Positions 38,199 to 48,188 of a stretch of DNA of 48,188 nucleotides are shown here, piece after piece. Numbering within the stretch: the stretch's first letter is position 1; the number at the start of each line of letters is the position of its first letter. The DNA comes from Herpetosiphonaceae bacterium (GTDB lineage Bacteria > Chloroflexota > Chloroflexia > Chloroflexales > Kallotenuaceae): NCBI GenBank assembly GCA_013821605.1, contig JACDGP010000030.1, positions 1-48,188 of the forward strand. The letters are read 5' to 3'. The translations under genes were made by a program, and so were the position numbers. The notes under the pieces were generated by a model that was not told the origin of the DNA, did not search any database, and saw only the letters and a list, made by a program, of their open reading frames with translations.

Positions 38199-39323
38199 CT
38201 AGCTTGCGGAGGGCGGGGGTAAGGTTGGGGGCCTAGGTTTACCTCCCAGCAAACGGCGTATGCGGCCCGTTACACTGGGTTTCGAAGGCGTTGCATGTTC
38301 AAGTCGAACCGTGGGACCGGTTTGCGGAGCGTGTTTACGCCGGTCAATCAGTTCACGCGCCCGCTGCTTGCCCAGTGCCAAAGCCTGTTGGTATAGCTGG
38401 CGAAGACCGCCATGCGAAAGAACCTCGCCCTTGCCATACCAAAGGGCAGCAGAGTGACCGACCGCATAGGTGCCCGCATAGGCGACCGCAACCTTGGGTA
38501 ACATACCGAAGCCGGGGATCAGGCCGACAAGTTCGCGGGCGAGCTGACGCCACACAAAGCCGCTGCCGATCACCGGCATAATCTCGCGCATTTGCGCTTG
38601 AAAATCAGGCGGAGCACCGTAAGCTAGCCCAAGTTTATAGGTTAGGAGGGCCTGGTTTTTGGTCAGCACGAGCATGTCGGCGGCGTTGAGGGGCAAGTTC
38701 AATAGTGGGATGAGTTCAGGCAAGCTTGAGGTCAAGGCATACGTTGCGTTTGAGAAGGATGTTTCACCGATCAGCGTCTGGGCGATAGCGTCGCGCAAGC
38801 CGGGCAAGCGCCGGCCGGCGGCGAGGCGGTCGCCCTCCGGCAACACTTCGACCAGCGCCGGTATCAACTGGTCACGGATGGACTGTGGCGTTAGCTGGGG
38901 TAGGAAGACGACCTTGGCCCCACCGAGGTCGGCCTCACGCCCGTCAACCGTCTGCGGCAGGCGCTCTCGTCCAATGACGGCGACAACGCGCGGTTGCCTG
39001 ACCATAACAAGCTTATCGGCAGTACTGACTGCCTCTGGCGGCAACGGCCGAGCCCCGTCTAGGACCAGGATCACCGCACCGGCGCTGGCGAGGTCATTTT
39101 GACGCTCACGTGGTAAGAGCAAATCCCACACGAGCAAAGCATCCCGGCTGGCTGCCTGGAAGCGCCCGGGTGTGCCACGCAGCACCTCGGCGACCGTATT
39201 GCGGGGTGCGGTTTCACCGATTAACGCGAGCGTCCAGGGCTGTTCGGCTTGCTGGCGGATCTCACCAACATTCAACTCGCGAATAGTGTTCCATACGGAT
39301 GCGATGTTACCTAAGGCTGCCAC
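38199..39323 (-). CDS. YcjF/DUF697-like protein with a degenerate GTPase domain
   Basis: A 374-residue protein. The N-terminal half has a nucleotide-binding-like fold: strand LALIG followed by ETAPRNT where a P-loop G-x4-GK-S/T would be, then [15 protein letters not shown]. The C-terminal half resembles DUF697 ([28 protein letters not shown]), a hydrophobic, membrane-associated module found with GTPases. The missing Lys suggests no GTP hydrolysis. The GTG at 39321-39323 is chosen for GGAG 7 nt upstream; an ATG at 39428 is in frame but lacks support. It is read toward murA's far side, ending 116 nt before the murA start region. Confidence 0.65.
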
Positions 39324-39473
39324 AGTTGCTCCAATGCTATCGTTTGTCGCTCGATGCCCGGTGGCTATCAGCCTCCATCTGCTGTGTAGCGTATGGGGCA
39401 GGTTGTGTTGCCTGAACACGTAGCACAAAATATACCAAGCATGGACGCTGGAGCATGTTTGGCCCGGCCAATG

Positions 39474-41480
39474 TTACTGTAGATCAGGATATGTTGCATA
39501 GCCGCCGTCGCGTAAGAGGACATAGATTTGGCGACCATGACCATTGACGGCCCAGCTATAAAGCAGCGTCCCGCCTTGAAAGCGTTGGTATACCCCGGAG
39601 GTTGCACCTGATAGGGCCGCTTCCGGTGTCGTCGCACAACCAAGTGCGTCGCTGACCGCAATCTCATTACGCCAGAGTTTGCCGAAGCCGCGGATTGGCT
39701 CAATACATCCAGGTGCTAACGCCAGGGGCACAAGCTGTTCACCATCGCGATAGGTATTAGGATAGACGCTCCAACTGCCGGTGCCAAGGGGCGTCATAAC
39801 ATAGATCCGCTGAGTCGCAGCCAGCCAGTACATCAGACCACCCGTAAAAAGTTGCTCGGCCGCCGGAGATGCAATTTCGCCAGCCAATGGACAGCCTAGG
39901 GCGCCACGGACCTGCGCGTTGCCGTTCCAGAGCTTCCCAAAACCGCCAGTTAAGAGCGGTTTACACAGCACGGGTGTCGCGGTCGCAGCCGGTGGCAGCG
40001 CAGTTGGCAGTGCGACAGTGGGGGGGACAGCTGTGGTAGTCGGCGACCGCGTGACGGTGGCCGGTGGTCGGGTGGTGGTGGCGGGTGGTCGTGCTGTAGG
40101 TTTGCTCGTCGACGGTGGTGGCGTCACCGTGGTCAGCATCTGCGGCGGTGAAGATGGCACCACAACGGGGTGGGCTTGAGCAGTGGGCACACTCGTAGCC
40201 GTCGATACCAAGGTTGCAGTTGGCAGCGTTGCCGTCGTGGTGAGCACTGCTTGAGCAATGTCCGAAACGGTTGACGTGGCAACCGAAGCGGGTGTCGCGG
40301 TCACGGTTGGGCCGGCAGAGAAGCTCGCAGTGGTCGGACTTGCGGTTTGCGTGGGGCTTGCAGGCAGGGGGCGTGTTGAAGTGGTCGAAGCAGGCCCGTT
40401 CGCGAGAGCCAACGGTTGACGGCCCCCCAGCCAAAGGGCCAGAGCAGTGCTCAATACTACAAGTAGCGCTAATGTCACGACAGCCACCAGGCCGCCCTTT
40501 GGTCGCTGCCAATCAGGTAGCACCGGAGCAGGTGGCTGCCCAAGCTGGGCAGCCACGGCTACCGGCGCCGCAGTCGTTTGACGTAGATGGGGTTCTTGTC
40601 GAAGCGCCGCCGGTGGAAAAACGGTACCAACTTCGGTCACATCACCGAGAGCAGCCTGCAAAGCTGCTGCCACATCACTAGCATGCTCCGGACGGTCAAG
40701 CGGATTTTTGGCCATAGCACCCAATAGCACCGTATCAACCGCCGGCGGGAGGCTGGCGACGATGGACGAGGGAGGCACCGGTTCATCGCGTAAATGAGCC
40801 AAGAGTACCGCCTGCCCACTACCCTCGAAGGGACGATGACCGGTGAGACTGCGGTACAACAGCGCCCCGAAGGCATAAATATCGGCGCGCCCGTCAATTT
40901 GACCGTTGGGAGCCAAGCGCAGATCGATCTGTTCAGGCGCAATATAGTCGGGCGTACCGACGATCACGCTGGACTCGGTCAAGCCAGGCGCATCCAGCGA
41001 TTTGGCAATACCGAAATCGGTCAGGATGGCCCGGTTGCGGCTATCGAACAGCACATTCCCAGGCTTGATATCGCGATGCACGACTCCTTGCCGATGGGCT
41101 TCGTCGAGCGCAGCGGCAATATCAGCGGCCCATTGGGCAACCTGGGCTGCCAGTATGCGTCCTTGACGCTGCAGCACATCAGCTAGGGAAGGGCCGGGTA
41201 GCAGCTTGAGGGCCAGATAAACGAGACCGCCAGCTTCACCAACATCATATATCGGCGCGATATGGGGATGATCGAGGCGCGCGGCGGTTATAGCCTCGCG
41301 GCGGAAGCGCTCAACCAGATCAGTATCATTGAGATACTGCGGGTACAACACTTTGAGCGCAACATGGCGCTGCAAGGCCGGATCAAAGGCACGATAGACG
41401 GCAGCCATGCCGCCCTGGCCGATCAAGGCCTCGATCTGGTAGCGACCGAGCGTGGTATTAACCAGATCTTCTAAGCGCAT
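39474..41480 (-). CDS. membrane Hanks-type Ser/Thr protein kinase with two extracellular repeats
   Basis: A 668-residue receptor-like kinase. The kinase domain (13-275) has the Gly loop GQGGMAAV, Lys43, HRDIKPGN (135-142) and DFG (155-157), so it should be active. A membrane segment (about 333-357) and a long Thr/Pro/Ala stalk follow. Two repeats of about 80 residues (about 506-591 and 592-668), each with GFGKLW-x-N and ALGC, end the protein and resemble LGFP-like wall-binding repeats. Its ATG overlaps the GT9 gene stop by 10 nt, so both are co-transcribed. Confidence 0.9.
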   Translation of the reverse strand: MRLEDLVNTTLGRYQIEALIGQGGMAAVYRAFDPALQRHVALKVLYPQYLNDTDLVERFRREAITAARLDHPHIAPIYDVGEAGGLVYLALKLLPGPSLADVLQRQGRILAAQVAQWAADIAAALDEAHRQGVVHRDIKPGNVLFDSRNRAILTDFGIAKSLDAPGLTESSVIVGTPDYIAPEQIDLRLAPNGQIDGRADIYAFGALLYRSLTGHRPFEGSGQAVLLAHLRDEPVPPSSIVASLPPAVDTVLLGAMAKNPLDRPEHASDVAAALQAALGDVTEVGTVFPPAALRQEPHLRQTTAAPVAVAAQLGQPPAPVLPDWQRPKGGLVAVVTLALLVVLSTALALWLGGRQPLALANGPASTTSTRPLPASPTQTASPTTASFSAGPTVTATPASVATSTVSDIAQAVLTTTATLPTATLVSTATSVPTAQAHPVVVPSSPPQMLTTVTPPPSTSKPTARPPATTTRPPATVTRSPTTTAVPPTVALPTALPPAATATPVLCKPLLTGGFGKLWNGNAQVRGALGCPLAGEIASPAAEQLFTGGLMYWLAATQRIYVMTPLGTGSWSVYPNTYRDGEQLVPLALAPGCIEPIRGFGKLWRNEIAVSDALGCATTPEAALSGATSGVYQRFQGGTLLYSWAVNGHGRQIYVLLRDGGYATYPDLQ

Positions 41481-42628
41481 ACTGACCCAGCCACTTGCGA
41501 GAGACGTGCGTGCACGACCTCATACATCTGCGCTACCGTGATACGCTCCAGGCAGGTGCGATCCGGGCAACCCGCCGGTGTGCCCAGCGTATAACCGCGA
41601 TAGATACATGGACTACAGGCGATTGTCGCACGCAGGGTGATATGCGGCCCCGCCTGAAGCACGACGACTCCATTGGGTTTGGTGGCCACAGTGGTCCAAG
41701 GCTGCTCACTCCAAGGTCCCCAGGCATGTGGATCGGTCGGACCATAAGGTGCGACGACCGGTGTACCCACCGCAGCCGCTAGATGCAGGATGCCGCTATC
41801 ATTGCCCAGAAACAGATCACATTGGCGCAATAGCCCGCCGAGTTCGGCAAAAGTGGTACGACCGCCCCAATCACGGAGCGCCTGAGGCTGGTGCAACAAG
41901 GAAAGGAATGTCCGGCGCAACTCAGCCTCTTCCGGCCCCCCGACCAGCACTACCGCGATGCTGTCCGCCAGTAAGCGATCAGCAAGCGCCGCCCAGCGGG
42001 CCACGGGCCAGCGACGAGCCGGGGCAAAGGTACCCGAACCAGGATGCAATGCTACCTGATAGCGTTCAGCGTGTGCAGGCAGCACTGCGCCCACAGGAGG
42101 TGGGCCGAGCAGTGGCATTGCAGCCGTTGCGATCTGTAGCAAGCCTACAACAGCGAGCCAATAGTCACTTTCGTGCTTCCTGCCAAAACCAAGGTCAGGC
42201 ACGGCAGCTGTTAGAAAGTTGCCACGACCATTATCCAGCCCGAGGATATGCTGTGCACCGGTCGCGCGGGCGAGCAGGCGATACTTCAGCGTGCCAAAGC
42301 CGGTCGTCAAGTGATGCAGGAGCAGGACCGTGTCGTAATGGCCGTACGCCAAGCGCTGCCATAAGAGTAGCCCCGCCAGGAGGTTAGCAGGCTTGAGTAG
42401 GGCGGGTGGGGAATCGAAGCGATGCTTGGGGAAGATAATCAGATCATCGTAGAGCGATAGAGTCCGCAAAGCCTGCTCCCCAGCAGGCGTCGTTAGCAGA
42501 TGAATAGTGGCAGCCGGTAGCCCTTGGCGTAGTGCGCCAAGGGCCGGTGTCGTCGCAAGAGCATCACCGAGGTCAGCCAGCTTGACGACCAAAATACGTT
42601 GCGGAGTAATCTGTGGGCCTGTAGACAC
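41471..42628 (-). CDS. glycosyltransferase family 9 protein (heptosyltransferase-like)
   Basis: A 385-residue GT-B enzyme of family GT9, best known for LPS heptosyltransferases. It shows ILVVKLADLGDAL at the start, LHPGSGTFAPARRWP and GNDSGILHLAAAVGTPVVAPYG, and a Cys-rich C-terminal segment (CSPCIYRGYTLGTPAGC) common in the family. The acceptor is unknown; in a lineage without typical LPS it may build another surface glycan. The GTG at 42626-42628 is chosen: TATACT ends 8 nt upstream of it, which would give a leaderless mRNA. It is upstream of and overlaps the kinase gene. Confidence 0.85.
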   Translation of the reverse strand: MSTGPQITPQRILVVKLADLGDALATTPALGALRQGLPAATIHLLTTPAGEQALRTLSLYDDLIIFPKHRFDSPPALLKPANLLAGLLLWQRLAYGHYDTVLLLHHLTTGFGTLKYRLLARATGAQHILGLDNGRGNFLTAAVPDLGFGRKHESDYWLAVVGLLQIATAAMPLLGPPPVGAVLPAHAERYQVALHPGSGTFAPARRWPVARWAALADRLLADSIAVVLVGGPEEAELRRTFLSLLHQPQALRDWGGRTTFAELGGLLRQCDLFLGNDSGILHLAAAVGTPVVAPYGPTDPHAWGPWSEQPWTTVATKPNGVVVLQAGPHITLRATIACSPCIYRGYTLGTPAGCPDRTCLERITVAQMYEVVHARLSQVAGSVCA

Positions 42629-42635
42629 AGTTCGG

Positions 42636-42644
42636 AGTATACCA
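42636..42644 (-). promoter_or_regulatory. extended -10 promoter of the GT9-kinase operon
   Basis: On the minus strand TGG-TATACT, hexamer at 42636-42641. Seven nt separate it from the GTG at 42628, so the transcript would start at or next to the start codon. No good -35 is seen. Confidence 0.45.
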
Positions 42645-42700
42645 TGTGGTGACTGACAGACTGGTTGTACATGCATGATAGCAAAGCGATAGAACCGTAC

Positions 42701-43807
42701 TCAAGCAGTCGTTGCCGCAACCATTTCGAGGATCGAGAGCGTTTGCTTGGCACAACGCTGCCAACTCCAGGGAGCAACGCGGGTCAGGCCACGGGCGCGG
42801 AGCACGGCATGGAGATCGTCATCGTGGACCAAGCTGTCAAGGCCACGCGCAAGGGCAGCGACATCCAGTGGATCAACCAAGATCCCGGCATCCCCGATCA
42901 CCTCTGGGAGCGAGGAGACTACAGATGCAAGCACCGGTGTGCCACAGGCCATGGCTTCCAGGGCAGGTAGGCCAAAGCCCTCATACAATGATGGGAGCAG
43001 GAAACCACGCGCACCACTGATCAGTGCCGGTAGATCATCGTCGGCAACATAGCCGGTGAAATGGACCTGGTGGGTTATGCCCAAGGAAGAGGCGCGGGCT
43101 TCGATTTCCTGCGTTAGCCAGCCACGTTTGCCGGCCAGGACCAGTTGGACACCGTCGAGATGAGCCATGGCACAAGCGTCGATCAAGCGGACGAGATTTT
43201 TACGCGGCTGGATCGTGCCCACGTACAACAGATAGGGCGATACGACGCCATACTTCGCCGTCACAGTAGATAGATGCTTAGCATCCACCACAGGCATGAA
43301 GCGCGGACTAACGCCAAGGTACACAACCGAGACTTTGTCAGGTTGGCTATGGCAAAAGTGGAGGAGGTCCCGTTTGGTCGCCTCGGAGTCTGCTAGGAGA
43401 TGCGTAGCGAACTGTGCCGACCACCAGGTTGAGTAGCGCAAATACAGGCGTTGTGCGGCCGGATGGGCGGTCGGATAGTGCATATAGCCGAGATCATGGA
43501 TTGTGACGACGGAACGACGCGGGTGTACAAGCGGCAAAACATGGGCCGGCACGAACAGCACGTCGGGCGCGCGATACAGCATTTCCGCTGACAGTCGCAC
43601 ATGAGTCCACAGGCGCGGCCAGGGCATAGTGCGTAGTTGAAAGCGCGGTGGCAACGGTGGAAGTGCAGCCGGACGATGATTAGCATACAGGGTATAGTGG
43701 TTATCCCGGTCGACCTGTCCGAGGGCCTGCAGTATCTCCCACGTATAATGCTCCGTACCGGTGCGTTGCCCGACCGCTAGACGTGACACGTCAATCCCAA
43801 TATGCAT
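42701..43807 (-). CDS. glycosyltransferase family 4 protein
   Basis: A 368-residue GT-B retaining glycosyltransferase. It has the N-terminal GTEHYTWEIL acceptor region, the YVGTIQPRKNL and VLAGKRGW donor-domain strands and the E-x7-E motif in EGFGLPALEAMACGTPV, so it should be active with a nucleotide-sugar donor, often GDP-mannose or UDP-glucose. AGAGGAA precedes the ATG. It lies 72 nt upstream of the GT9 gene and likely acts in the same surface-glycan pathway; donor and acceptor are unknown. Confidence 0.9.
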   Translation of the reverse strand: MHIGIDVSRLAVGQRTGTEHYTWEILQALGQVDRDNHYTLYANHRPAALPPLPPRFQLRTMPWPRLWTHVRLSAEMLYRAPDVLFVPAHVLPLVHPRRSVVTIHDLGYMHYPTAHPAAQRLYLRYSTWWSAQFATHLLADSEATKRDLLHFCHSQPDKVSVVYLGVSPRFMPVVDAKHLSTVTAKYGVVSPYLLYVGTIQPRKNLVRLIDACAMAHLDGVQLVLAGKRGWLTQEIEARASSLGITHQVHFTGYVADDDLPALISGARGFLLPSLYEGFGLPALEAMACGTPVLASVVSSLPEVIGDAGILVDPLDVAALARGLDSLVHDDDLHAVLRARGLTRVAPWSWQRCAKQTLSILEMVAATTA

Positions 43808-43977: not shown

Positions 43978-46575
43978 TTAAGGTGTGGCAGTCGTGGCCG
44001 GGTTGGTGGTAGAGGAGCGCGGAGGTGGGGGTACCGGCAGATTAGCGCGCAGTGCTTGGTTGCCGTTGGCGAGATAGATGAAATTATGTACTTCATCGAC
44101 TTGAAGATCGCGTAACTGATTCAGTGCCCCAGGCTGGTGAGTCTGCATCTGCTGAAGCACATGACCATCGCCTTTATCGACCTCCACCACACGCTCATGC
44201 TGCGTGTCCAGAATATAGATATGTCCCTGCTGCGTCACGTTGTCGTTCGCATCTACTTCGTCAGGGGTGACAAAGAAACGATTCACCGTGACGATGGGAT
44301 CCGCGAGTGGCGGTGGCGGTAGCTCACGTTTAAAGGCTTGGTTTTGAAAGACCGAGACACTACCATTGGGATGTAACAGGTAGACCGTGCCATCAATCGC
44401 CATATTGACGACCTCGTCAAGCCCGCCTGGCTTGCGCGTCGTAATCCATTCGGTAGGAACGTCGCCGTAGTGACCCGAGCTATACTTCATTAGCTGATTG
44501 GTGACACCATAATGCAGTTTTGCGTCAGCGTTCCAGAGGTAGAGATGACCGCCATAGACCGCAACCGGCGGCGTATCTTTACCGGGCAGCCACTCACTGG
44601 CCTGTAATTTGTTCACTAACCACTTATCTTTGCCGCGCGGGTAGGCAATGATGAAGGGATTGGTGGCGTCCGGATTGCGTTCAAGGGCCAGAGGATTATC
44701 GTCACGCCATAACAGATCACTGATTTTTCCAACCTTGCTGTTACCCGCTAGACTATCACCCTGGCTCAAGACGGGATGGATGGCGCCGCCTTCCTGCGCA
44801 TACACAATGCCAGCCGCCCCATCTAGCAGATAGATTGGTTCTGATAATGCGCCGGTCGTCGTAGTTGGATCGGTGGCAAGGAGTAGCCGACTGATCTGGC
44901 CAGCAGCATCGGGTAGCGTCGCGACCTTGGTAAGGTCGCCCAAAAACCCAATGTGATTGATCGACGCCATTGCACTATCATAGCTACGCAGCAGTAGCTG
45001 ATAGCTGTTCCAGTTCGCTGTTTTGGTCGTTGTAATCAAGCCATTAGCAAGCAACGGCGTGATATTCTGCAGATTCTTTTGGGCGATCACCAACTGCTCA
45101 TGGGCTGTCGTATCATCGCTCGCATTTTGTGCCGCCGTAATTGCCTGATCCACAGCATGAATTGCGTCGCGTACCCGCGCACTATCGCGCCGCCGGTTGA
45201 TTTGCAAACCACCAATGACTAGCACGGCAAAGGCAAGCAGTAACAGCCCTACATTGATCCAGGGAAATGGCGGTCGAGTACGGCGATAGGATAAGCCACG
45301 GACTTTGGGACGCGGTTGTGGTTCGGGAGCAGCAATCCGGCGGGTACGGCGACCAGTATTGGCCATACCGCCCAGCACACGTGCTACGGCGTGCCGCAGT
45401 GGCAAGCTTGCACGCTCGTGCCAGGCCGGTAGAGGCTGAGGTTCGCGTTTGGGCAAGGCGGTGAAGTCGAGGGGTATACCCGCATTATCACCAAGATCGA
45501 TGCGATGATCTTTTTTGGGAGCCGGTGGTCGAACAATACCACCATAGTCACCCTCGCCAATGAAGGCACTCATAGGTAACGGCTCGACATCACCAACCGG
45601 CACCGTTTCCATTAAAGCATGACCGGGCAGCGTCGTGACCGACATAGCCGGCTGTCGGGCCGATGTGGTAATGGTTACGGACGCGGGAACAGCATCGGGC
45701 TGAGCGGCGGCTTGGAGCAGTGTTGGTCGCGAACGAACGGCGAGCTGGGCTTCACCGGCGATGTCGCCAAGCCAATTGCCCACCTTCTCGACCGCCAGCT
45801 TACTGCGTTCGCTTACACCGGCTGCACTAAGTGGTGCCTGTTGCGCTTCGATCGACAGGGTCGGCAGGATTTCGATCACCGCTGCGTGGGCTTCCGGCAA
45901 ACTAGCACGCCGGCAAAGCGTATATAAACCTTCTGCCACGGTGGCAACGTCCGCGAAGCAGATTAACTCCTCCGCCTGCTGCTTGCTCAACAAACGAGCA
46001 AGATTGGAGGAGCATAAGACAATGGTGTCACCAGGTTGGATCACGGAGCGAAAGAACTCCGGCTCAGAACCTAAACTTGTGCCGAGCGCGCCGGCCATAC
46101 CAAAGCCTGGACCGTTTTGAGCACCACCAATCCAACTGACGGGATTAGGCAGCCCGCGTAGCTTGCCGGCATGGGCCACAAAGGCTTGCGTAGGTGGCAC
46201 CTGCGCTATGTATAAATCGCCGCCTTGGAGAACAGCAGCGCCTAGGCCAACAGTTGTACGTTTATGCACCGGTGCCGTAAAGTTATATTCATACAAGGCG
46301 GCGTTCGCAGCACGCATCGCTTTACGCAACGCTGACGTAATGCTACTCACGCCGTCATCATAGTAGGTGTCGTGCAGCGTAGCCGACACGAGGGTACATG
46401 CTTCACGTCCACGTGCCAGATCGCCGGCCGCCTCGGCTACGACCAGCAGTTGGCCTTTACGCACCTGGGGACTAAAGCGTGAAGGTGCGGGGTGTAACAC
46501 AATCAGGTCACTGGCATCTTGCCGAATACCGCTGACCAGACCCCATTGTGCGATAGCAGTATGATATTTCGTCAT
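43978..46575 (-). CDS. PP2C-fold pseudophosphatase with membrane segment and outer propeller-like domain
   Basis: An 865-residue protein. Residues 1-240 have the PP2C (PPM) fold, but the metal motifs are lost: VVAEAAGD (45-52) stands for VADGMGG, LCSSNL (187-192) for CSDGL, and the final DN reads EAH. A low-complexity linker, a membrane segment (about 439-459), a helical stretch and a beta-propeller-like outside domain (about 590-835, repeats such as VYLLHPNGSVSVF) follow. It is probably a non-catalytic sensor or scaffold. An extended -10 lies about 35 nt upstream; there is no clear Shine-Dalgarno. It is on the same strand as, and upstream of, the two glycosyltransferases and the kinase. Confidence 0.82.
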   Translation of the reverse strand: MTKYHTAIAQWGLVSGIRQDASDLIVLHPAPSRFSPQVRKGQLLVVAEAAGDLARGREACTLVSATLHDTYYDDGVSSITSALRKAMRAANAALYEYNFTAPVHKRTTVGLGAAVLQGGDLYIAQVPPTQAFVAHAGKLRGLPNPVSWIGGAQNGPGFGMAGALGTSLGSEPEFFRSVIQPGDTIVLCSSNLARLLSKQQAEELICFADVATVAEGLYTLCRRASLPEAHAAVIEILPTLSIEAQQAPLSAAGVSERSKLAVEKVGNWLGDIAGEAQLAVRSRPTLLQAAAQPDAVPASVTITTSARQPAMSVTTLPGHALMETVPVGDVEPLPMSAFIGEGDYGGIVRPPAPKKDHRIDLGDNAGIPLDFTALPKREPQPLPAWHERASLPLRHAVARVLGGMANTGRRTRRIAAPEPQPRPKVRGLSYRRTRPPFPWINVGLLLLAFAVLVIGGLQINRRRDSARVRDAIHAVDQAITAAQNASDDTTAHEQLVIAQKNLQNITPLLANGLITTTKTANWNSYQLLLRSYDSAMASINHIGFLGDLTKVATLPDAAGQISRLLLATDPTTTTGALSEPIYLLDGAAGIVYAQEGGAIHPVLSQGDSLAGNSKVGKISDLLWRDDNPLALERNPDATNPFIIAYPRGKDKWLVNKLQASEWLPGKDTPPVAVYGGHLYLWNADAKLHYGVTNQLMKYSSGHYGDVPTEWITTRKPGGLDEVVNMAIDGTVYLLHPNGSVSVFQNQAFKRELPPPPLADPIVTVNRFFVTPDEVDANDNVTQQGHIYILDTQHERVVEVDKGDGHVLQQMQTHQPGALNQLRDLQVDEVHNFIYLANGNQALRANLPVPPPPRSSTTNPATTATP

Positions 46576-46674: not shown

Positions 46675-46750
46675 GGTGGCGTACCCAAGTGGCCTAAGGG
46701 GGCGGTCTGCAAAACCGTTATCATGGGTTCAAATCCCATCGCCACCTCCA
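46675..46750 (+). tRNA. tRNA-Cys (anticodon GCA), CCA encoded
   Basis: A full cloverleaf. Acceptor GGTGGCG pairs with CGCCACC (46740-46746). The D-arm starts near 46684. The anticodon stem GCGGT/ACCGT (46702-46706, 46714-46718) holds the loop CTGCAAA with anticodon GCA at 46709-46711. There is a 4-nt variable loop. The T-arm ATGGG/CCCAT has loop TTCAAAT. The discriminator base is U (46747), as required for Cys, and CCA is encoded at 46748-46750. Confidence 0.97.
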
Positions 46751-46820: not shown

Positions 46821-48101
46821 TTAAAAGGTAGGATGGACCTCGATCACCTGCTCACGTCCAGCCCCCACCGAGACAAGCGTAATGGGTGCCCCGACCAGCG
46901 CTTCCAGACGCCGTAGATAGGCTTGAGCTGCTGGTGGCAACTCATAGAAGCTTCGACAGGCCTCGGTTGAGCATTGCCAACCAGCCATCGTCTCATAGAT
47001 AGGCTGGATCTGTGCTAGCACGGCTGCTGTCGTCGGCAGATAGTCAATAATCGTATCATGCAGGCGGTAGTGCGTACAGATGTTGATCTCCGGCAGTTCG
47101 TCAAGGATATCGAGTTTGGTGATGATCAACTGGTCGATACTATTGAGCCGTTGGACATAGCGGGCAGCCACGGCATCAAACCAGCCGCAACGTCGGGCCC
47201 GTCCGGTGGTTGTACCATATTCGTCACCACGCTCGCGCAGCCGATCGCCTAGAGCACCGGTAAGCTCGGTGGGGAACGGACCTTCGCCCACCCGTGTAGC
47301 ATAGGCCTTAAAAACCCCGGCGACGTGCGTGAGGTCGCGCGGACCAATACCGGCTCCCTGACAGGCGCCAGCCGCTCCCGGTGAGGATGAGGTGACGTAG
47401 GGATAGGTGCCCCAGTCAACATCGAGTAAGACCCCTTGAGCCCCTTCGAGTAAGATGCGATCGCCTCGTTGGAGGGCCGTGTCGATGAGGGGGAACATTG
47501 GCACAATGCGCTCACGCAACTGCTGGACAAGATCAAGATACCGAAGGTAGGTTTCGTGCAGGGGTATTGCTGTTCCGCCGTAGGCCTGAAGCACTCGGTT
47601 TTTGGCTTCAAGCGCCTGCGTGAAGCGTTGTAAAAAGGTTTCTTCATGGAGCAAATCACCCATGCGGATACCGCTACGCTCAATCTTATCGCCATAGGCC
47701 GGTCCAATGCCGCGCCCGGTGGTACCGATTCGACCATCCCCCCGCAGCGTTTCCTGGAGTTTATCCTGCTGGATATGATAGGGCATCACGACTTGGGCAC
47801 GGTCACTAATACACAAATTGTCGCAGCGGACGCCAGCTGCTTGCAACATCGCGATCTCTTCGAGTAGCATGGATGGATCGATTACGACCCCACTGCCAAT
47901 AATATTGAGCTTGTCAGGATTGAAAATGCCGGCAGGAACAAGGTGTAACTTAAAGGTGCCTAGTTTATTAATCACTGTGTGGCCGGCATTATTCCCGCCA
48001 CTATAGCGCACTATGACATCAGCATGTTGGCTTAGCAGATCGACAATGCGGCCTTTGCCTTCATCGCCCCACTGACCACCAATAATCGCCACAACTGACA
48101 T
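46821..48101 (-). CDS. purA: adenylosuccinate synthetase
   Basis: Joins IMP and aspartate using GTP, the first step to AMP. The 426-residue protein starts MSVVAIIGGQWGDEGKGRIVD with the P-loop-like GDEGKGR, then GGNNAGHTV (catalytic His), the TTGRGIGPAY loop and GTTTGRARRCGWFD. All usual motifs are present. The ATG at 48099-48101 has GAGGT about 5 nt upstream; the frame is open to 48173 but the family begins here. It works with purB, which is elsewhere in this window. Confidence 0.97.
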   Translation of the reverse strand: MSVVAIIGGQWGDEGKGRIVDLLSQHADVIVRYSGGNNAGHTVINKLGTFKLHLVPAGIFNPDKLNIIGSGVVIDPSMLLEEIAMLQAAGVRCDNLCISDRAQVVMPYHIQQDKLQETLRGDGRIGTTGRGIGPAYGDKIERSGIRMGDLLHEETFLQRFTQALEAKNRVLQAYGGTAIPLHETYLRYLDLVQQLRERIVPMFPLIDTALQRGDRILLEGAQGVLLDVDWGTYPYVTSSSPGAAGACQGAGIGPRDLTHVAGVFKAYATRVGEGPFPTELTGALGDRLRERGDEYGTTTGRARRCGWFDAVAARYVQRLNSIDQLIITKLDILDELPEINICTHYRLHDTIIDYLPTTAAVLAQIQPIYETMAGWQCSTEACRSFYELPPAAQAYLRRLEALVGAPITLVSVGAGREQVIEVHPTF

Positions 48102-48129
48102 AAGGACCTCATTCGTAAGACAGCCGACC

Positions 48130-48138
48130 AGTATAGCA
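48130..48138 (-). promoter_or_regulatory. extended -10 promoter of purA
   Basis: On the minus strand TGC-TATACT, hexamer at 48130-48135. The start point would be near 48123, about 22 nt before the ATG. No good -35 at 17 nt. Confidence 0.5.
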
Positions 48139-48188
48139 TAGCCGTGGGAGCAAGACGGCTGCATCGTGTACAATACAGTATGTAAGCA

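Follow-up and report, generated by a model that had tools for sequence, protein, structure and literature searches.

We propose that a near-universal membrane protein of the Chloroflexota is a phylum-wide receptor pseudophosphatase that would signal through binding; we put this at roughly two chances in three, taking its inactivity and its binding role loosely together. The gene lies in a 48,188-nucleotide stretch of DNA from a Herpetosiphonaceae bacterium (the window), and its 865-residue open reading frame, which is without interruptions and has a start methionine in register with those of its aligned orthologues, is a genuine gene (Table 1). A homologue is present in 59 of the 60 genomes of the order, mostly at full length, and this conservation, together with the intact frames, rules out a random pseudogene. 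We note that a tRNA-Cys gene on the opposite strand (46675-46750, +) sits between the receptor gene and purA (46821-48173), so that the receptor gene has a short promoter region.

Table 1. Coordinates of the receptor gene, its domains and pocket residues, and neighboring genes. Residue counts are over 34 non-redundant Chloroflexales sequences.
Feature	Position	Strand	Basis
CDS, receptor-type PPM pseudophosphatase (probable), 865 aa	43978..46575	-	ORF, homologues
Degenerate PPM/PP2C domain, cytosolic, residues 1-240	45856..46575	-	Profiles, model
D23, equivalent of PPM Asp38 and sole canonical acidic position still Asp; S22 precedes it, in the place of Glu37	46507..46509	-	
E48, where active PPMs have the bridging Asp (D60); 33/34 E, 1/34 D	46432..46434	-	
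Q125-V-P-P128-T-Q130, in place of the N-V-G-D-S-R loop	46186..46203	-	
S189-S190, in place of the S-D pair in SDG; S190 kept in 33/34	46006..46011	-	
E228-A229-H230, in place of the DN motif; acidic residue at 228 in 23/34, His230 in 24/34	45886..45894	-	
Linker, proline-rich and poorly conserved, predicted to be flexible, residues 241-437	45265..45855	-	
Conserved linker motif LPMSAFIGE, residues 333-341 (family form PPSA-x-LGE)	45553..45579	-	
Conserved linker motif IDLGD, residues 359-363 (family form IDL-x-D)	45487..45501	-	
Transmembrane helix, single, residues ~439-460	45196..45261	-	
Helical stalk, extracytoplasmic, residues ~461-539	44959..45195	-	Model
Six-bladed NHL-type beta-propeller, extracytoplasmic, residues ~542-845	44041..44952	-	Model, profile
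GT4, downstream of the receptor gene, same strand	42701-43807	-	
GT9, downstream of the receptor gene, same strand	41471-42676	-	
Hanks kinase, outer part with LGFP repeats	39474-41480	-	
409-aa protein directly after the kinase; no Pfam or NCBIfam match	38199-39428	-	

Profile, model, and structure matches together identify the N-terminal domain as a member of the PPM/PP2C superfamily with a predicted PPM beta-sandwich fold. Residues 1-240 match the NCBIfam Stp1/PP2C entry (E = 8.9e-8), and the family profile, compared with the PDB, finds tPphA over residues 33-234 (E = 4e-19). The AlphaFold model of residues 1-250 has a pLDDT of 89.7, and a structure search with the PPM-domain model gives tPphA as the best match (Z 24.2, 2.9 Å over 212 residues); among the structure matches listed, all are PPM phosphatases, and this unambiguous outcome rules out a mis-assigned fold. 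Pfam gave no family over its cut-off for the full protein or for 39 PPM domains, and its silence on those PPM domains too means that its absence is no evidence against the assignment. The first-pass annotation, made from the sequence alone, had recognized the PPM domain and proposed comparing a predicted structure of residues 1-240 with PPM structures, and these results bear it out.

The motifs required of an active PPM phosphatase are replaced, as the first-pass annotation had correctly read them (DGMGG as EAAGD, SDGL as SSNL, and DN as EA(H)). In place of DGxGG (Asp60-Gly61) the protein has EAAGD, with E48 conserved; SDG (Asp239) has become SSN; and at DN (Asp282) the acidic Glu228 stands, with the Asn gone. 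The Glu of the Glu37-Asp38 pair is replaced by S22 and the Asp is kept as D23, and several active homologues read QD at this pair. The further statement that all metal-binding motifs have been lost was too broad: it holds for E37, G61, D239, and the GDSR loop, which are lost outright (to S22, A49, S190, and PPTQ, respectively), but not for D38, D60, and D282, where acidic residues persist as D23, E48, and E228. These three might still hold one metal. A survey of Chloroflexota homologues, suggested by the same annotation, shows the losses to be fixed across the degenerate clade, and this combination of a PPM fold with clade-wide loss of metal ligands is that of pseudophosphatases such as TAB1 and PHLPP2. 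Canonical two-metal phosphatase activity is thus very probably absent. Four other PPMs in the same genome (contigs C41, C63, C103, and C155) have canonical motifs.

The positions that replaced the lost ligands are themselves strongly conserved. Q125 and P128 are invariant in the 34 Chloroflexales sequences and Q130, like E48 and S190, is present in 33 of them, and over the 78 domains of the degenerate clade, P128 is kept in 71 and Q125 in 62. A decayed pocket would not show conserved replacements, and conversion of the pocket therefore seems a better reading than decay; ordinary decay is ruled out by these new invariant residues. The Thermobaculum-type members (L131-L133) have Asp at SDG and DN, Glu at the D60 position, and no GDSR loop, and are possible intermediates. 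Because L132 and L133 keep Asp at both SDG and DN, some family members may retain activity.

Membrane crossing and a propeller-like outer domain had also been claimed in the first pass, and both are confirmed, with a single transmembrane helix, an N-in orientation, and an NHL propeller. The model of residues 430-865 (pLDDT 91.3) comprises the transmembrane helix, a helical stalk, and the propeller, which matches NHL propellers with Z 22, including the PknD sensor (1rwl) with Z 19.5; a profile search agrees. Arg and Lys are in excess on the N-terminal side of the helix in 94 of 104 family members, which places the PPM domain inside the cell, although the window protein taken alone is near-balanced in its flanking Arg/Lys (6 vs 5).

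The family is widespread: of 300 genomes from the phylum, 239 match the full-length profile, active receptors counted in. A search beyond these relatives used narrow peptide patterns, which reach near relatives only, and restriction to the phylum is thus not proven; a plasmid search for the protein gave no match. We note that two metagenome-assembled genomes titled Rubrobacter (L129 and L130) carry a member nearest the Thermobaculum type, reflecting either mislabelled assemblies or transfer.

Full-length homologues with intact PPM motifs, transmembrane helix, stalk, and propeller occur in four families (f15, f22, f38, and f41). Homologues with active motifs, which if close would have spoken against a pseudophosphatase, are therefore found distantly, in other families of the phylum, and not within the order. 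A quick tree search with 97 PPM domains, from which the ligand columns had been removed, gives a single branch (SH-aLRT 100, length 1.0) that splits 19 active from 78 degenerate domains; several of the 19 come from full-length receptors of this design. The propeller is present in 76 of the 78 degenerate members, the other two being short frames on incomplete contig stretches, and the ectodomain profiles of active and degenerate members align with an hhalign probability of 98.8 (E = 1.3e-16, 344 columns). The degenerate form is absent from all 16 tested genomes with active receptors of these four families. Because the active homologues are full-length receptors, the most economical history has a receptor phosphatase losing catalysis a single time while those families kept the active form; the tree search was quick and its branches are long, so that a single loss is the most economical account and not a proven one. 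In four loci (L058, L063, L064, and L065), a same-strand gene of aspS type (aspartyl-tRNA synthetase) follows the active receptor PPM gene at a distance of 108-171 bases.

In the first pass, the same-strand Hanks kinase, with GT4 and GT9 genes between it and the receptor gene, was taken to mean that the receptor binds the kinase or phosphoproteins and links an outside signal to surface glycans. The arrangement is real in the window, but it is not shared: across 39 other loci (~5-20 kb each), four from its own family included, the gene has no Hanks kinase close by, and these 39 loci also lack a nearby GT9. GT4-type genes occur in several of them, mostly kilobases off or on the opposite strand. 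The neighbors are instead specific to clades, being surE in f1/f2, zwf in f3, a small lipoprotein gene in f4, and tsaD in some distant loci, and the gene neighborhood across loci suggests no partner. In seven Chloroflexales loci (L077, L079, L082, L084, L086, L087, and L088), a lipoprotein-like gene (~180-260 aa) directly follows the receptor gene in an operon-like arrangement. The genome encodes 20 Hanks kinases in 5.88 Mb, and the chance of one falling within ~6 kb is thus ~5%; contig C63 has six of the 20, together with one canonical-motif PPM, within ~30 kb. The protein is also kept in three genera of family f28 whose genomes, 93-96% complete, have no detected Hanks kinase, PP2C_2, or other PPM-profile match. 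In f28, as far as this level of genome completeness allows, the protein therefore does not depend on a Hanks kinase or its phosphoprotein as a partner.

These observations bear directly on the proposal that the pseudo-PPM domain binds the window kinase or its phosphoproteins and, by way of the two glycosyltransferases, governs the synthesis of surface glycans. An intact-looking kinase on the same strand, a TAB1-like precedent from general knowledge, and the distribution of Hanks kinases in a small sample of 40 genomes (17 of 20 with the family vs 6 of 20 without it) speak for it, although eight of the latter 20 come from a single kinase-free family, f13. A Hanks kinase consistently encoded nearby, which would mark a kinase-linked module, was not found in the 39 other loci, the neighbors differ from clade to clade, and f28 keeps the protein with neither detected Hanks kinase nor PP2C. 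We therefore regard the kinase-partner claim of the first pass as unsupported, and think it unlikely to be right. A decoy role, in which the pseudo-PPM domain would pair with or compete against active PPM phosphatases of the cell, is suggested by the four canonical-motif PPMs in the same genome, but the absence of other detected PPMs from the f28 genomes and a neighborhood not common to active PPMs make it more doubtful still.

The protein might alternatively be an altered but active hydrolase, with Glu48, Asp23, Glu228, and His230 forming a one-metal site that hydrolyses phosphate or another ester. Position 48 is consistently acidic, position 228 often so, and position 230 commonly His in the Chloroflexales, and the Thermobaculum-type members keep more of the ligands. 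Phylum-wide, however, residues 228 and 230 are free to vary, and some lineages have Q, A, or T at position 48; Chloroflexus lacks D23, E228, and H230 together; and the single-metal PPM relatives PHLPP2 and TAB1 are inactive (PMC12002173). Such an activity seems improbable to us.

We thus favor a receptor pseudophosphatase, a term already used in the first-pass annotation and well supported by the fold, the clade-fixed loss of ligands, the single-pass N-in topology, and the external NHL propeller. Its role is probably that of sensor or scaffold, and we judge it somewhat more likely than not to be a binding receptor under ligand control. The protein would have originated as a receptor-type PPM phosphatase; a single conversion at the root of the degenerate clade would then have turned its active site into a conserved binding site. 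Binding of a ligand by the propeller outside the cell, or its assembly there, may change the stalk spacing or the oligomeric state, upon which the pseudo-PPM domain with its rebuilt pocket, together with the linker motifs, would hold or release a putative cytoplasmic partner. The persistence of the protein in f28 raises the more tentative idea that a phosphatase converted once across most of the phylum then left Ser/Thr phosphorylation altogether, and that its rebuilt pocket may now accommodate a different ligand or partner as part of a near-universal function of the envelope.

The family offers a natural series, from active receptor phosphatases through partly degenerate to fully converted members and on to lineages in which the converted protein has outlasted its enzymatic context, and this makes the transition from receptor enzyme to receptor pseudoenzyme directly testable. 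It also gives a name to a near-universal, unannotated membrane protein of the Chloroflexota. The PPM fold, the NHL sensor propeller, and eukaryotic pseudophosphatases are all already known kinds; what is new, with respect to the open literature, is a bacterial receptor pseudophosphatase family that has active full-length counterparts and is retained without kinases. No bacterial PPM pseudophosphatase or PP2C-propeller receptor is described in the open literature that we searched, outside of which most subscription journals lie.

Among the known eukaryotic PPM pseudophosphatases, TAB1 and PHLPP2 share with the protein described here a PPM fold with lost metal ligands. These are not propeller receptors, whereas here the protein is a bacterial single-pass receptor with other substitutions. 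Each of the two binds a single metal, zinc in the case of PHLPP2 and manganese in that of TAB1, and is counted as a pseudophosphatase; for PHLPP, a single loss in an ancestor has been described (PMC12002173). The bacterial PPM phosphatases tPphA, PstP, and Stp1 resemble the N-terminal domain in fold (Z 22-24) and in profile over residues 33-234, but they carry the full set of Asp ligands, whereas the receptor has E37, G61, D239, and the GDSR loop replaced. The active receptors of f15, f22, f38, and f41 (L058, L063, L064, L065, L150, and others) have the same domain order and homologous ectodomains but, unlike the window protein, keep DGMGG, SDG, and DN. PknD of Mycobacterium tuberculosis likewise joins a single transmembrane helix to an extracellular six-bladed NHL sensor propeller; its cytosolic part is a Hanks kinase, whereas the receptor described here carries a PPM domain, predicted to be catalytically dead, in that place and differs further in the helical stalk ahead of its propeller.
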